Positions 1,711-62,637 of a stretch of DNA of 64,000 nucleotides are shown here, piece after piece. Position 1 is the first letter of the stretch. Each line of letters opens with the position of its first letter. Under the pieces are notes generated by a model. It saw nothing but the letters and a program-made list of their open reading frames with translations. It was not told where the DNA came from and did not search any database. Position numbers and translations under genes: made by a program. This DNA is from Sisyra terminalis (Eukaryota; Arthropoda; Insecta; Neuroptera; Sisyridae), in the NCBI GenBank assembly GCA_958496175.1, contig OY292277.1, positions 35,041,050 through 35,105,049 of the forward strand, in the 5' to 3' direction.

Positions 1711-1848
1711 TTAGGTGCAATATCGGACCCTTGTTGCATGAGTGAACCAATTGTGAACCAGAGTGAGTTGAGCAAACTGAATTGATTCTCAAGTACATCG
1801 GGTTCGTCATTGCACGGATGTGGATTATCCCATTCATATGGGCTGAAT
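1711..1848 (-). CDS. Kainate-type glutamate receptor, alternative pore exon b
   Basis: Second of two tandem exons encoding the pore loop (M2) of the receptor. It starts after TTTCAG with one base completing the split Arg codon of the preceding exon (CG|A). It reads [24 protein letters not shown] and [14 protein letters not shown], and ends as AA|GTAAGT inside a Lys codon. Length is 138 nt, identical in length and phase to the exon at 1898-2035, and 33 of 45 whole codons encode the same residue. The Q/R-site residue is a genomically encoded Gln (MQQG). The residue after MQQG is Ser, as in vertebrate GluK subunits, whereas the sister exon has Cys. In family terms the loop lines the selectivity filter, so the swap could alter permeation or block; that effect is inference. 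The exon is intact, with no stop and good splice sites, so it does not look like a dead duplicate. Confidence 0.93.
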
Positions 1849-1897
1849 CTGAAATTGATACAACAACGATATAAATAGGAAATCTGGGTAGACTTAC
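1849..1897 (-). promoter_or_regulatory. 49-nt spacer intron between the two pore exons
   Basis: This is the whole interval between the donor of pore exon a (GTAAGT) and the acceptor of pore exon b (AATTTCAG). At 49 nt it is the shortest intron of the gene here; the neighbouring short introns are 60, 60 and 117 nt. Skipping or joining it keeps the frame, because each pore exon is 138 nt. Exclusion of double inclusion therefore cannot rest on frameshift and nonsense decay. A very short spacer can stop both splice sites being used together, a known mechanism for mutually exclusive exons, but some insects splice introns of about this size, so the mechanism is only a suggestion. Confidence 0.55.
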
Positions 1898-2035
1898 TTG
1901 GGTAAGAAATCACAGCCCTGTTGCATTAGCGAGCCGATTGCAAACCACATACAATTCAGTAGTGTAAACTGATTTTCCAAATGATCCGGATCGGGGTTAC
2001 ACGGATGCGGATTGTGCCATTCGTACGGTGTAAAT
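1898..2035 (-). CDS. Kainate-type glutamate receptor, alternative pore exon a
   Basis: First of the two tandem pore exons. The acceptor is a T/A-rich tract ending TTACAG; the first base completes the Arg codon split by the previous exon. The exon encodes [24 protein letters not shown] and [14 protein letters not shown], and ends AA|GTAAGT, as does exon b. It covers the M1-M2 linker with its conserved PYEW.NPHPC block, and the re-entrant M2 pore loop. The Q/R site is Gln, so unedited calcium permeability would be expected from family knowledge. The GCD that follows MQQ resembles AMPA-receptor pores, whereas exon b has GSD. The twelve residue differences from exon b are spread along the exon and include H/D, P/D, D/E, H/V, M/L, A/T, C/S, F/I and L/A. 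Confidence 0.95.
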
Positions 2036-2152
2036 CTGTAATTTTTTTTTTTGGAATTTTTCCAATTTTAATTGACACCAGTATTACTTATCGAGTCACA
2101 ACATACGCAACAGAACCTTTATGATTATTAATGGAAAACGAAATTAACTTAC

Positions 2153-2583
2153 CGCGCAAGGATAAAAAGTAAAACTGAAACACCTAAATAGGCCGTTGCC
2201 ATGTAAATCCAAACGTCGAGCGATAATGGTGACAAAAACGAGAATAAATTAGGTGCTTGTTTGATCGGTTTGCGATACAAAATACTAATTCCCAAATTCA
2301 TAAATGGCATTGTGAAGTCAACGGCTTGCTCGCGATCGTAGGTAATTGTCAGATCAGCAATAGCTAAATCCGCTTTTTGATCCAGTAATTCCTTCATCAT
2401 CCCATCCCATTCCTTGGTTTCCCGATTCAATGAGCCATAACGTCCATCGGGAGCAAGTCTAATCGTGTAATTGAACCCAAGAATCCGGGATATTTCATGA
2501 ATCAAATCAATAGCATAGCCTTCAAATTGATCATTTCCGGTAAGTTTCTCGCTCGAATCCTTTCGCATACAATACGGTGAACT
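2153..2583 (-). CDS. Kainate-type glutamate receptor, S1 ligand-binding and M1 exon
   Basis: Exon of 431 nt between ATTTTAG and CG|GTAAGT, entered in phase 0. It encodes most of segment S1 of the glutamate-binding clamshell and the first membrane helix. Visible landmarks are SSPYCMRKDSS, GNDQFEGYAIDLIHEI (the Tyr in FEGY is a ligand-contacting position in the family), the lobe-1 block ADLTITYDRE, and FMNLGISILYRKP before M1. M1 is the hydrophobic YMATAYLGVSVLLFILA. In ADLTITYDRE the Arg corresponds to the residue that binds the alpha-carboxylate of glutamate in AMPA and kainate receptors, and the Thr of LTIT is kept. The usual Pro of PLTIT or PLAIT is Asp here. The protein acts at the plasma membrane as one subunit of a tetrameric cation channel. 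Confidence 0.96.
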
Positions 2584-2643: not shown

Positions 2644-2862
2644 CAATATTGTTGTCACTACAAAAGTTTTGTTTTGCAAAATTTCGACTATCTGCGTGTA
2701 TGCTTCACCGTAGGTCCGAGTGAAGTTAACCCCTTCCGTCGAATTCCAGGTGCCGATTTTCTTCAACCCATCTTTCGACAGCTCTACAATGTCTAAAACG
2801 AAGTCACTACGAAATCCTTGATGATCAAACTTAATAACGCCCGTGAGTCCTTTCATTTCAAC
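2644..2862 (-). CDS. Kainate-type glutamate receptor, end of amino-terminal domain and start of S1
   Basis: Exon of 219 nt (73 codons, phase 0 on both sides), from GATAG|GTT to TTG|GTACGT. It encodes VEMKGLTGVIKFDHQGFR, then the linker VELSKDGLKKIGTWNS, and ends QNKTFVVTTIL. In the family the GLTG.I.FD..G.R block closes the amino-terminal (LIVBP-like) domain, and the VTT.L strand is the first strand of the ligand-binding domain. Three N-glycosylation sequons are visible (NST, NFT, NKT), which fits an extracellular location. The flanking introns are both 60 nt. Confidence 0.95.
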
Positions 2863-2922: not shown

Positions 2923-3075
2923 AATTTTCATGTAATTTATCAAACTGTAGCCGTGGGGCCATGTATCAACCGTATCGCAACTTAACGGCTTTATATCGAT
3001 TTGCTGACTCGTATCAAGATCATGTAGAGCTTTTGCGAATAAATGAACCGCATCGTACATCAAAGCTGTTTCGGC
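2923..3075 (-). CDS. Kainate-type glutamate receptor, amino-terminal domain exon
   Basis: Exon of 153 nt (51 codons, phase 0 on both sides), from TATTTCAG|GCC to ATT|GTACGT. It starts AETALMYDAVHLFAKAL, the conserved helix of lobe 2 in kainate receptor amino-terminal domains, and ends DTWPHGYSLINYMKI. The Cys in LSCDTVDTWPHG is the family's conserved disulphide position near the end of the domain. It follows a 5.8-kb intron and precedes a 60-nt intron, so long and very short introns alternate within this gene. Confidence 0.95.
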
Positions 3076-5154: not shown

Positions 5155-6760
5155 CAGTGACGTGCACAGAGATTTTAGGTAGGGTAGGCAGAAATTTTTA
5201 AAAGCTACTTTAATATAATAAAAAATGCTGCATGTTGGTTTTAGTTCGTCGTTATGATGAGTAAATAATGAACTCTATACCGATTAGCCAACAAAATTTT
5301 AAAGTGTGAATTTTCTGATTTTTTTTTGCCAATCGATGGGAAATCGTTCGTAGAGGTATGTGAAAGAAACCGTTTCGATTGTGACAAAATAGTTTAGCGG
5401 TAATAAATTAATTTGAAAAATTAATTAATTAATTAGTCATAGATATAGTAAAATGTAAAGAAAATATGGTTCAAACAACATACAATAACAAAAATGCGGG
5501 AAAATTTAGGAAACGGTTGGTTAAATGTAACACTAAAAAAAAAGTTAAGGAAAACTAAACAGAATCCCCCCCTTCGAAAAAAAATAGAAAAAAAAAGGCA
5601 ACTCAGAAATTAATTTTTTTCCTCAAATTATATTTTCCCAAAATTTTATAAAATAACAAAATCGAAACATAATTAAACAGGCTTTTCTCCAAAATTTTTT
5701 CATCGCTTATGAAAATCAACATATCGCACAAAAAATTTTTGAAAAAATATACATATATACGAAGTAGAACATTAAGTGTTTTTTGCAATTCGGAAAATAT
5801 TTTTCTTTGACTTTTTTTAGTTTTAGTTTTAACCAACCGTTTCCTAAATTTTCCCTAATTTTTGTTATTGTATGTCGCTTTACACCTTATTCTTTTTAAC
5901 ATTTTACTATATCAATGACTAATTAATTAATTTATTTTATGTATTTAATTACCGCTAAACTATTTTGTCACAAACGAAACGGTTTCTTTCACAAACCTCT
6001 ACGAACGACTTCCCATCGATTGGCAAAAAAATTTCGGAAAATTCACACTTTAAAATTTTGTTGGCTAATCGGTATAGGCTAAATAATGATGTTGATATTT
6101 TTAAGCACAAATATCCATAGATAGACTCATTTTGTAAACTTTATTAAAGAAATACAATATAATCGTCAGGTTAAAATAATACAGATAATAGATAATACAT
6201 TATTAAAATTTATTAGAATTAAATAATAACAATGTACGTAGATTATTGATCGTTTAATCGATTATGGAAATCAATAAAATTCAAATTTGTAATTGCAGCG
6301 TTAATGAATAAGAAAGAATGCTACTGCGGTAATTATCGTAATTTGTCGTGTTGTAAGAAGACAGTGTCTTTTTATGAGGTTGTGTGCGTGCGTATGTGTA
6401 GAATTGTATATTTGTATTATTGTTTTTATACGAACCCACACACTGACACACATATAGCTATGAATGCACACATATAAATATTTAGGCACGAATAGTTTGT
6501 GTCTTTCCCGCCGCGTTGCCAGGAGCGCTAGTGCATTGCAATGCAAATATTACCAGTCGCTTACTTGAAATTGAACGAACGAATGAGCTGGCATGATCTG
6601 TATACTGTATAGATGATATCCGTTAAGATTTTTTCTTTATTGATATTTGATAATACTCGTAAATTAAATAAAACTAGATATCAGAACAAAATTATAAATA
6701 TTTATCTGAATTATGTAGGGTAGGCAGTGTCTTTTTGTCTATATGTAATGCACGCCACTG
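5155..6760. mobile_element. hAT-type DNA element, 1.6 kb, non-autonomous
   Basis: Left end CAGTGACGTGCA and right end TGCACGCCACTG are inverted repeats with one mismatch, starting CAGTG as in hAT elements. Both sides carry the identical 8-bp direct repeat ATCGTCAG (5147-5154 and 6761-6768), the duplication size expected for hAT insertion. A second subterminal inverted block follows (GTAGGGTAGGCAG occurs at both ends, at about 5180 and 6717). No transposase reading frame is visible. The central half (5272-6079) is a second element that jumped in. The intact duplication suggests a fairly recent insertion. Confidence 0.85.
5272..6079. mobile_element. Foldback element nested in the hAT element
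   Basis: About 150 bp at each end form long inverted arms: left CTATACCGATTAGCC through GTGTGAATTTTC, CGATGGGAAATCGTTCG, GAAAGAAACCG and CAAAATAGTTTAGCGG, mirrored at 5945-6079. It is bounded on both sides by TAAATAATGA (5262-5271 and 6080-6089), a 9-10-bp direct repeat that looks like the target duplication. No coding sequence is seen. The same termini occur in the elements at 41665-42742 and 45736-46442, so this is a family; this copy appears internally deleted. Confidence 0.8.
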
Positions 6761-8850: not shown

Positions 8851-9018
8851 CCGTAAGCTGGCGAGGCCGAGATCGAGCTTTCGTCCGTAGCGTGCTTCTC
8901 CGTGGACCCATTCCCGGACCACTTTTTGAAGTTCGGGTTTTTCGGGATCGACTAAACGAAACGCAGTTATATTCGTGCCGCCGTATTTAAATTCCTCTAA
9001 ATCTACGCTATGTAAGTC
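8851..9018 (-). CDS. Kainate-type glutamate receptor, amino-terminal domain exon (lobe 2)
   Basis: Exon of 168 nt (56 codons, phase 0 both sides), from GTTCCAG|GAC to CGG|GTAACA. It encodes DLHSVDLEEFKYGG, TNITAFRLVDPE and VVREWVHGEARYG, a strongly conserved part of the kainate receptor amino-terminal domain, with one N-glycosylation sequon (NIT). The open frame runs on past the donor with no similarity, which supports the chosen end. The next exon resumes exactly with AETALMYDAVH. Separated from exon C by an intron of 235 nt. Confidence 0.94.
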
Positions 9019-9253: not shown

Positions 9254-9395
9254 TAAAGTCGTTATTAAGTAGCTATGGTAATCGCTCATCATTCCAATTT
9301 GTTGAGCTTGTTTTAAAACATCGTAGATTCGATCGGTGGAACAATCGAGTACTATATGAGACTCTGCTGAGTTTTTGATTTGCTTCAATAATGGT
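9254..9395 (-). CDS. Kainate-type glutamate receptor, amino-terminal domain exon (short)
   Basis: Short exon of 142 nt, found from the splice frame. It starts after TTTTTTCAG with one base that completes the split Arg codon from the exon at 39635 (AG|A), and ends TTA|GTAAGT in phase 0. It encodes PLLKQIKNSAESHIVLDC and LKQAQQIGMMSDYHSYLIT, matching the family pattern in which a Cys-containing strand precedes the QA...GMM.DYH.Y helix-strand unit. It joins directly to DLHSVDLEEF in exon D. The intron upstream, back to exon B, is about 30.2 kb. Confidence 0.94.
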
Positions 9396-24829: not shown

Positions 24830-26249
24830 CCTTCCCGGTCCGAAGCGGGGTTTTTACGTACCCCAGGCACCCCATGGATCACTTTAAAATCTTCAACTTT
24901 TTAAAAATTATTTTAATGATTATATGTTTCACTCTACTACGGCACAAAGAAGAGAGACAGTTTTATTGAGTTTCTTCTGTGATTACTTCATAATTCTCAA
25001 AATGCAAATTGCAAAGTGTAAACCGAAAGTGATAATTGTAAAATGCATTGTTTTCTTTCTCAAACGTTTAGTTGTGTATTCATTCTTGAACGTGCAACAT
25101 CTTATCGATCTTACCTGATTATTTCTAAACCAGTGTTTCTAAATTTCTTTACATCAATTCCTTTAGCGAACAATTTTTTTTTAAATGATGTGACTCTCAC
25201 CGGAACAATCAGGAGAAACAAAAGAGAAATATTTATCAATCAAAAATCAAGCGGTGACTATTATCCACAGAAGTCAAAAATATTGAAGTAGAAGATGGTC
25301 CGCGAAAAAGGCCAAATATTATTATTCATTATAATAAAACCAAAGGAGCTGTCGATACTGGAGACAAAATGACCCAACAGTATAGTCTTGTTAGGACTAC
25401 TAGAAGGTGGCCGTTCAGAATAGTCATGGAAATAATAGATATGACTGCATTAAATGCTTACATTATTTGGGTACAGAATAACCCAGATTGGCGAAAAGGA
25501 GACCGTAGCCGAAGACAAGCATTTCTTCGAGAATTGGCTACGGAATTGCTAAAAGAAAATGTTTTAAAACGGAAAAACAACAATGTAAATTACCACAAGC
25601 ACATTCAACACGGCTTTGAGTTATTTGACCAAGTTATCAATAATGGAAATAGCACTCCAACGAAGAACCTTCAATTGGCAGTAGAGCAAGACCAGCAGGA
25701 TATACCAAAAACTACGAGTTGTAGTTTTTGCCCAAGAAGTGAAGACAGAAAATTTAAAATTCGATGTGACTTATTAATAATATGATGTAACTTATTCACC
25801 GCTATCAAATTAAAACAATTTCTTGTCCAAATTGTAAACATTAATTTATAGTCTGTAAAAATGTATTATAGTAATCTAAATATATCTAAAAAATCTAAAT
25901 ATATAGTTTTATTATAAGTAAATTAGTTTTTGTAATATTTTAGCTATATAAACTATATGAACTATTTCTTTTATACCTAAGTTCTTTTGTAAATAATTTT
26001 TATTTTTTATTGTTTTTAAGTTGTAATTATATTATTTTTTTTAATTTTGATTACCATTTAAAAAAAATATTCACATATTATGTACTTTAGAATTTTTTTG
26101 AAAAAATTAAAATATTTGTAATACTCAAAAAAAATTTTCATTTAAAAACATATTTCACTTTGTTTGAGAAGCACTGGATTTGGTCTGGGGTATGTCGGAT
26201 ACCCCGCTTCGGACCATTTGAAATTTTTCAACCCTCCGTGTCGGAAAGG
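24830..26249 (+). mobile_element. piggyBac-type element, 1.4-kb internally deleted relic
   Basis: Flanked on both sides by TTAA (24826-24829 and 26250-26253), the target of piggyBac. The left end is CCTTCCCGGTCCGAAGCGGG and the right end, inverted, is CCTTTCCGACACGGAGGG. The block GGTCCGAAGCGGGGT recurs subterminally near the right end in inverted orientation, so both ends have the structure expected of one element. About 1.4 kb remains, where a full element would need a transposase gene of roughly 1.7-1.8 kb, so most of the gene is gone. Confidence 0.9.
25133..25785 (+). pseudogene. piggyBac transposase fragment
   Basis: Two collinear pieces of the DDE_Tnp_1_7 transposase survive. The first (about 25133-25234) reads FLNFFTSIPLANNFFL and TLTGTIRRNKREI, the family's region just before a catalytic Asp segment. 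After a frame change the second piece (from about 25285) reads HYNKTKGAVDTGDKM, the block with the last catalytic Asp (VDTGD.M), then RTTRRWPFRIVMEIIDM and TALNAYIIW. It ends at a stop after CSFCPRSEDRKFKIRC, within the cysteine-rich C-terminal zinc-binding tail. The N-terminal half and the first catalytic Asp are missing, so it is inactive. Same strand as the element. Confidence 0.9.
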
Positions 26250-39634: not shown

Positions 39635-39792
39635 CTGTAATCGTTTCCTTCGCCCAACTGTCGTACTGTAATCGGAAATTCGGTTGGTCCATGAGCTTTA
39701 AGCAACTCTTGTAGACGCACCAAACCCTCGTTATTTTCGTAGATAATTGTGAACGATTTCCAATTCCAAGCTTTCACCAAGTCAACGTATGC
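39635..39792 (-). CDS. Kainate-type glutamate receptor, amino-terminal domain exon
   Basis: Exon of 158 nt, from TTTTTACAG|GCA (phase 0) to AG|GTCAGT, leaving a split Arg codon that is completed at 9395. It encodes AYVDLVKAWNWKSFTIIYEN, EGLVRLQELLKAHGP and VRQLGEGNDYR, a highly conserved part of the amino-terminal domain; the W.WKSFTIIYE strand is diagnostic for the kainate group. It is isolated: 21.2 kb from exon A and 30.2 kb from exon C. The upstream part of the open frame (39793-39915) has no similarity and is intron. Confidence 0.96.
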
Positions 39793-60968: not shown

Positions 60969-61153
60969 CTTTGAAAGGGTTGTTGGATGAGGATATAAAT
61001 TAACGAGACACGATTCCCGTCGTAGTCGATAATCCCAACGCGTTTCCAAATGTGGAATTTCCATTGTGTCACAAATACTTTGCACATGAGAGGCAGTATG
61101 GGGCGATTGTGGACCGAAAATAGCAGCAACGCCACTACGCAATAAATGGCACA
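60969..61153 (-). CDS. Kainate-type glutamate receptor, amino-terminal domain exon (most 5' seen)
   Basis: Exon of 185 nt. The acceptor is TTTTTTACAG; the first two bases complete a split codon whose first base is in an unseen upstream exon. It ends AAG|GTAACT in phase 0, matching exon B. It encodes CHLLRSGVAAIFGPQS, HTASHVQSICDTMEIPHLE, TRWDYRLRRESCLVNLYP and HPTTLSK: lobe 1 of the amino-terminal domain, with the family's GVAAIFGP loop and the IPH..TRWD block. The signal peptide and first ~80-100 residues are upstream. I looked on the minus strand to 64000 for that exon and did not find it. Confidence 0.95.
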
Positions 61154-62201
<1,048 letters not shown>

Positions 62202-62637
62202 GAGCGATACCCATATAAACTAGTTTTCCATGAATTTATTTATGTAAAATGAGCTTTCATCTGCTTGAAACTTTTTCCAAGTTAGTTTTCGTTCACTTGA
62301 TTTTTCTTATCTTCTTCAAATAACAGTTAATTAGAAACGTTTTTCTACGTTGAAAAAATCGTTATGAGAAAACTTGAAAAAAATTTGTCTTCAAGTTAGT
62401 GTTGAAAAAAGTTCTAGGATTTCAGCAAATATTTCCCTCTTAATAATATATCTTATTATCCATTTTTGATTTTGTAGTTTCTGCAAAATTTAAATAATTT
62501 ATTCAGGGAACCTCAAAAAGGGTACCATCCATTGCAAACTCGACATTAACTTTGCGACCTAATTGTGTCTACTAGATTACGTCTACCGGAAAGTTCTTCC
62601 CGTTTTTGGAATAAAACGGAGAAATTTTTATTTACCG
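62202..62637. other. Intron stretch, nothing recognised
   Basis: AT-rich. From about 62510 composition becomes more even, leading into the unidentified open segment on the minus strand. Confidence 0.4.

Follow-up and report, generated by a model that had tools for sequence, protein, structure and literature searches.

For a pair of alternative exons in an ionotropic glutamate receptor gene, one of the closest described systems is flip/flop of the AMPA receptors: tandem, homologous and mutually exclusive exons of 115 nt, which encode the end of the S2 part of the ligand-binding domain (LBD) and alter gating (PMC8257547, in the portion available to us). Since 115 is not a multiple of three, inclusion of both shifts the reading frame. 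The pore loop (M2) is changed in a different manner, by RNA editing at the Q/R site of GluA2, GluK1 and GluK2, and in GluK2 this editing site corresponds to Q621R (same portion of PMC8257547). The residue at the Q/R site and the acidic residue four positions further on have both been linked to polyamine block and to the permeability for calcium (PMC6307864, available portion). The ion selectivity of a glutamate receptor is set by its pore loop, and at the locus described here it is just this loop that splicing would exchange.

The window, i.e. the whole 64-kb stretch of Sisyra terminalis DNA that was analysed, contains in minus-strand order an exon coding for S1 and M1 (e3), then a pore exon (A) and then a second one (B) (Table 1). 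The two pore exons have a common phase, each completing an Arg codon after ...LA, both have AG acceptors and AA/GTAAGT donors, and their translations are free of stops and frameshifts, with 33 of 45 residues identical and 12 different. In all this the first-pass annotation was accurate, coordinates and 138-nt lengths included. Only 11 of 45 codons are identical. One count has to be amended: the exchange of GCD for GSD is accompanied by eleven other differences and not by ten. Equal length, phase, splice sites and homologous sequence are what is expected of a mutually exclusive cluster, and A and B agree in all of them. An M2 profile run over the six frames of the window (open stretches of at least 12 codons) gave 128.5 and 125.0 bits to the two exons and at most 7.1 to the next best stretch, and found no third M2-like exon in the window.

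Table 1. Features of the receptor gene in the window (positions count from its first letter) and residues of the pore exon that mark A and B, with the number of distinct segments (62 A, 38 B) carrying the marking residue.
Feature	Position	Strand	Basis, remarks or counts
Pore exon B (M1-M2 linker + M2)	1711..1848	-	138 nt; splice borders, translation, M2 profile
Intron A-B, 49 nt	1849..1897	-	best branch-point-like motif 26 nt from A donor (own scoring)
Pore exon A (M1-M2 linker + M2)	1898..2035	-	138 nt; splice borders, translation, M2 profile
Intron before A, 117 nt	2036..2152	-	purine-rich 3' end, weak polypyrimidine tract
Exon e3: LBD S1 + M1	2153..2583	-	homology matches, splice borders
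Exon e2: ATD end, S1 start	2644..2862	-	homology matches, splice borders
Exon e1: ATD	2923..3075	-	homology matches, splice borders
ATD exon, same gene	8851..9018	-	tblastn with C. carnea protein; borders by eye
ATD exon, same gene	9254..9395	-	tblastn with C. carnea protein; borders by eye
ATD exon, same gene	39635..39792	-	tblastn with C. carnea protein; borders by eye
ATD exon, same gene	60969..61153	-	tblastn with C. carnea protein; borders by eye
Mark Thr (A) / Ser (B)	residue 2		A 61/62, B 34/38
Mark Cys (A) / Ser (B)	residue 28		A 61/62, B 38/38
Mark Ala (A) / Thr (B)	residue 32		A 54/62, B 37/38
Mark Cys (A) / Ser (B)	residue 41		A 61/62, B 34/38
Mark Phe (A) / Ile (B)	residue 43		A 54/62, B 36/38
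Mark Leu (A) / Ala (B)	residue 44		A 62/62, B 36/38

At the nucleotide level A and B are identical at 90 of 137 positions (66%), with 37, 39 and 14 matches at first, second and third codon positions, and Nei-Gojobori counting gave a pS of 1.07 (saturated) and a dN of 0.19. Saturated silent sites together with a conserved protein point to an old duplication in which both copies are under protein selection. That the pair could be an assembly artefact or a local mis-duplication is practically negligible as an explanation: we found no point in its favour, the copies have diverged to the extent just described, and proteins of unrelated insects show an A-B pair in the order found here.

Spliced together, e1, e2, e3 and A give 312 residues that match GluK2 (5kuf_A) over residues 2-312 with an E value of 2.4e-107, and the end of the ATD, S1, M1 and M2 are homologous to those of GluK1-3, as in a kainate-type subunit. 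Along GluK2 the two pore exons align with the M1-M2 linker and M2, and not with the end of S2, where flip/flop is located. The highest identity (98%) among the 120 matches listed was to an A-type protein of Chrysoperla carnea, "glutamate receptor ionotropic, kainate 2 isoform X2" (P0128), and several relatives are named "kainate-type ionotropic glutamate receptor subunit 1D". The window gene is the insect KaiR1D ("kainate 2"), and much of it lies inside the window, where the C. carnea protein matches six stretches: four ATD exons, e1-e2-e3-A and B. The M3 exon (SYTANLAAF), S2 and M4, all present in P0128, had no match within the 64-kb window, and the gene from the M3 exon onward presumably lies beyond the window end.

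Several repetitive elements were seen along the same DNA. Only the C-terminal end is left of a DDE_Tnp_1_7 transposase (PF13843, E 9.3e-10), which we take to be of the piggyBac type, inside the receptor gene at 25258-25785 (+). A palindromic element at 5275-6077, with inverted arms of 136 nt (94% complementary) and nested ones of 69 and 59 nt, is probably a MITE-like insertion into an intron. Downstream of exon B there are two 75-nt direct copies (223-297 and 646-720), 81% identical and 423 nt apart, and a long TA-type microsatellite at 61784-62223 shows as IYIYIY open frames on both strands.

The first-pass annotation had recommended a search for the duplicated exon in other insects, and both forms were indeed found in annotated proteins of several insect orders. 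The M2 profile detected one segment in 198 of 281 fetched proteins, two segments in 33 and none in 50. For the comparison of forms we used a representative set of 161 proteins from two long-query searches (120 and 41 more), from which three were dropped. P0243 (1452 aa) and P0244 (1307 aa) contain two B-type segments 724 and 731 residues apart, respectively, and were judged to be fused gene copies; in P0246, from the spider Caerostris, S1-M1 is repeated between an A-like and a B-like M2, which indicates two fused genes and not an exon pair. Segments were assigned to A or B by the better alignment score against the two exons of the window. Among the matches listed, 80 of the 158 remaining representatives have only A, 48 only B, and 30 have A followed by B, counts in which A is favoured by the use of A-form queries; the proteins are 90% clusters and the best 120 per search, so that not finding A or B in a species carries little weight.

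Six species have a full-length annotated isoform pair that differs only within the pore exon, over a single stretch of 12-13 residues: Schistocerca gregaria (X1/X2), S. americana (X1/X2), Macrosteles (X2/X1), Euwallacea fornicatus (X3/X4), Cloeon (X2/X1) and Cacopsylla, names such as X1 being those of automated models. In Cloeon, X2 and X3 differ in the pore exon and in one other stretch, and Cryptotermes has one A and one B protein whose ends are also different. An A and a B isoform are also annotated in each of three Papilio species (P. machaon, P. polytes and P. xuthus), and both forms are present across species of Anopheles. We take the taxa with A and B forms to belong to Ephemeroptera, Orthoptera, Blattodea, Hemiptera, Coleoptera and Lepidoptera, and Anopheles to add the Diptera. 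Near the window species, only the A form, that of C. carnea, is among the matches listed, and scans of viral and genome contigs returned no relative with an orthologous locus at the DNA level. Judging from annotated proteins, it is well supported that the choice between pore exons is widespread in insects.

Of the 12 positions at which the exons of the window differ, six are near-fixed when 62 distinct A and 38 distinct B segments are compared (Table 1). Besides these marks, QQS replaces QQG right after the Q/R site in 24 of the 62 distinct A segments (Lepidoptera, caddisfly, leafhoppers) and in none of the 38 distinct B segments. In a tree of 116 segments one branch separates all 62 A, including that of an ostracod, with a support of 86/76, below the strong threshold, while B and 16 outgroup segments are intermixed. 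The simplest reading, suggestive only with 46 columns, is that B would be the older type and A a derived copy. The ostracod protein (Notodromas monacha, P0247) has an A-like M2 directly joined to a B-like one, in a model that also contains a repeated S1-M1 piece, and it is only suggestive of an exon pair older than the insects.

The first-pass annotation treated A and B as alternatives and predicted that inclusion of both would give a malformed channel. The annotated A-only and B-only proteins of several insect orders agree with the first of these views. Strict mutual exclusion is nevertheless not established, with 30 of 158 representatives holding A and then B, and for the same reason neither is the malformed channel, all the more as the A+B junction of the window, unlike a double inclusion of flip/flop, keeps the frame (359 aa without a stop). 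In 29 of these 30 proteins the two segments are directly joined in frame, the other being P0133 of Dufourea, with 29 residues between them. Several are isoform-named models in the style of RefSeq, namely those of Anabrus (X3), Vespa velutina (X12), Bombus pyrosoma (X4), Helicoverpa zea (X1, X2 and X7) and Cydia (X1). Spodoptera litura has A+B in X1 and X2 and A only in X4 and X6, the sole difference between X2 and X6 being a stretch of 46 residues, which corresponds to B in length, and the A+B protein of Aulacocentrum was submitted as a named receptor. All this would favour an A+B mRNA as a regular product, translated into a subunit with two consecutive re-entrant loops that might be functional, dominant-negative or a dead end. 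M2 enters and leaves the membrane on the cytoplasmic side, so that a second loop would not flip the topology. The predicted structure of one A+B protein (P0220, from a 40-row alignment) had a mean pLDDT of 43.1, too poor to inform. We nevertheless consider regular double inclusion unlikely: many of the A+B models are unnamed or hypothetical (e.g. those of Timema, Exocentrus and Molorchus), six species have clean A/B pairs, and the A-B intron of the window is very short. In moths and wasps the exclusion may be leaky, or else their A+B models may be wrong.

We have considerable, although not complete, confidence in the reading that the tandem pore exons are used alternatively and mostly exclusively, giving two pores on one ligand-binding domain. 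In a KaiR1D-type gene with a tandem duplicate of the exon for the M1-M2 linker and pore loop, the spliceosome would normally join M1 to A or to B and then to M3. The products would be two subunits with the same ligand-binding domain and two pores, which may differ in permeation or gating. In the window species the choice would be mostly exclusive because the A-B intron does not exceed the smallest size that is spliced well. For flies, minima of ~35 nt from donor to branch point and ~15 nt from branch point to acceptor, ~50 nt in total, have been given, and introns of 40-50 nt do splice, only more slowly (PMC5762160, available portion). With 49 nt, the A-B intron is just under this fly minimum, while the neighbouring introns measure 60, 60 and 117 nt; its best branch-like motif, by branch-site weights of our own, is 26 nt from the donor. 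Closeness of donor and branch point underlies the exclusion of the alternative exons of rat alpha-tropomyosin, where the distance is 42 nt (PMC6572816, available portion); here the whole intron measures 49 nt, and the spacing is what we infer to be the likely cause of exclusion in the window. RNA structure was considered as another cause and discarded, as neither folds nor inverted repeats stood out: for the intron before A, folding was no stronger than in shuffled sequences (z 0.49), and for the whole locus it was only slightly stronger (z -1.95, with 5 of 100 shuffles as good).

The two acceptors, both described as good by the first-pass annotation, share the AG but are of unequal strength. 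In the 25 nt before it, pyrimidines make up 68% for B and only 28% for A, which has an A-rich run. The weak acceptor of A would make B the default, and A would need help to be chosen. The poor polypyrimidine tract could also be taken as a sign that the window species uses one exon only, the other being a relic or pseudoexon, and the absence of B between A and M3 in P0092 and P0003 (see below) illustrates that one copy can be lost. This strikes us as very improbable, because the protein sequence of both exons is maintained although silent change is saturated, because the two carry the residues that mark A and B in other insects, and because C. carnea has an A-type isoform.

In part of the flies one of the exons appears to be missing. 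The fly representatives listed with an A-type segment are those of Drosophila (P0254, P0255), Hermetia, Zeugodacus, Episyrphus, Condylostylus and Glossina, whereas no brachyceran representative listed has a B-type segment, although the 90% clustering could hide one. Drosophila KaiR1D, which we take to be CG3822, is the apparent ortholog of the window gene and differs from it in this respect, its two representatives being of the A type. In P0092, M1 runs into A, followed by ~20 codons of apparent intron and then by M3 in frame, with B absent between them; P0003 is similar, except that M3 follows in a different frame (as judged by eye). From their likeness to mosquito A segments we infer that both are flies, and they would then favour a loss of B in flies. 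Exchange of just the pore loop by splicing, conserved in many insect orders but apparently without exon B in Drosophila, would be a way of tuning channels that work on the main insect model had no means of uncovering.

How far the swap alters the pore seems to depend on the insect. The change of selectivity proposed by the first-pass annotation is weak for the window species, where A reads MQQGCD and B MQQGSD: in each, the Q/R site is Q and the fourth residue after it is D, so that exon choice makes no Q/R switch and only modest changes of the pore are expected. Hymenoptera make a much stronger case. All nine listed hymenopteran proteins that contain exon A have R in it at the Q/R site (Vespa, Bombus, Mischocyttarus, Dufourea, Apis cerana, Andrena, Osmia, Venturia and Aulacocentrum), exon B has Q in 12 of 12, and six of the listed proteins show both exons; no sawfly A was among them. 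Overall, R occupies the site in 7 of 62 distinct A segments and in none of 38 distinct B segments, the instance outside Hymenoptera being exon A of the louse Menopon gallinae (P0190). The hymenopteran arginine aligns with residue 621 of GluK2 (583 + 38). A more far-reaching reading, to which we incline only slightly, is that the exon pair is an ancient, splice-operated pore switch of KaiR1D that in bees and wasps has become a hard-wired Q/R switch (A = R, B = Q), in which calcium permeability and polyamine block depend on the exon that is spliced in; the pair would possibly predate the insects, and B would have been lost in part of the flies. The prediction for Hymenoptera is that A-form channels are calcium-poor and linear, and B-form channels calcium-permeable and rectifying. 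If true, splice choice in bees and wasps would do the job of vertebrate RNA editing, and a B exon lost from some of the flies would explain why work on Drosophila missed the pair.

We found no description of a pore-exon pair among the matches listed in searches of openly licensed papers, including the available portions of PMC3303723, PMC3228551, PMC7644725, PMC6110825, PMC6720082 and PMC6307864. What is already known are the isoforms, which stand in databases, and mutually exclusive exons and Q/R editing as kinds of regulation. What appears to be new is a conserved exchange by splicing of the pore loop itself; in Hymenoptera this exchange would amount to a Q/R swap. Compared with flip/flop, which modifies the end of S2, the exons described here are longer, at 138 nt, and replace the pore loop. 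Compared with Q/R editing, the change likewise falls in the M2 loop, and in Hymenoptera at the very position of GluK2 621, but the hymenopteran arginine is encoded in the DNA and chosen by splicing and not by ADAR, while both exons of the window carry Q. The hymenopteran pair is a possible splice-made counterpart of vertebrate RNA editing.
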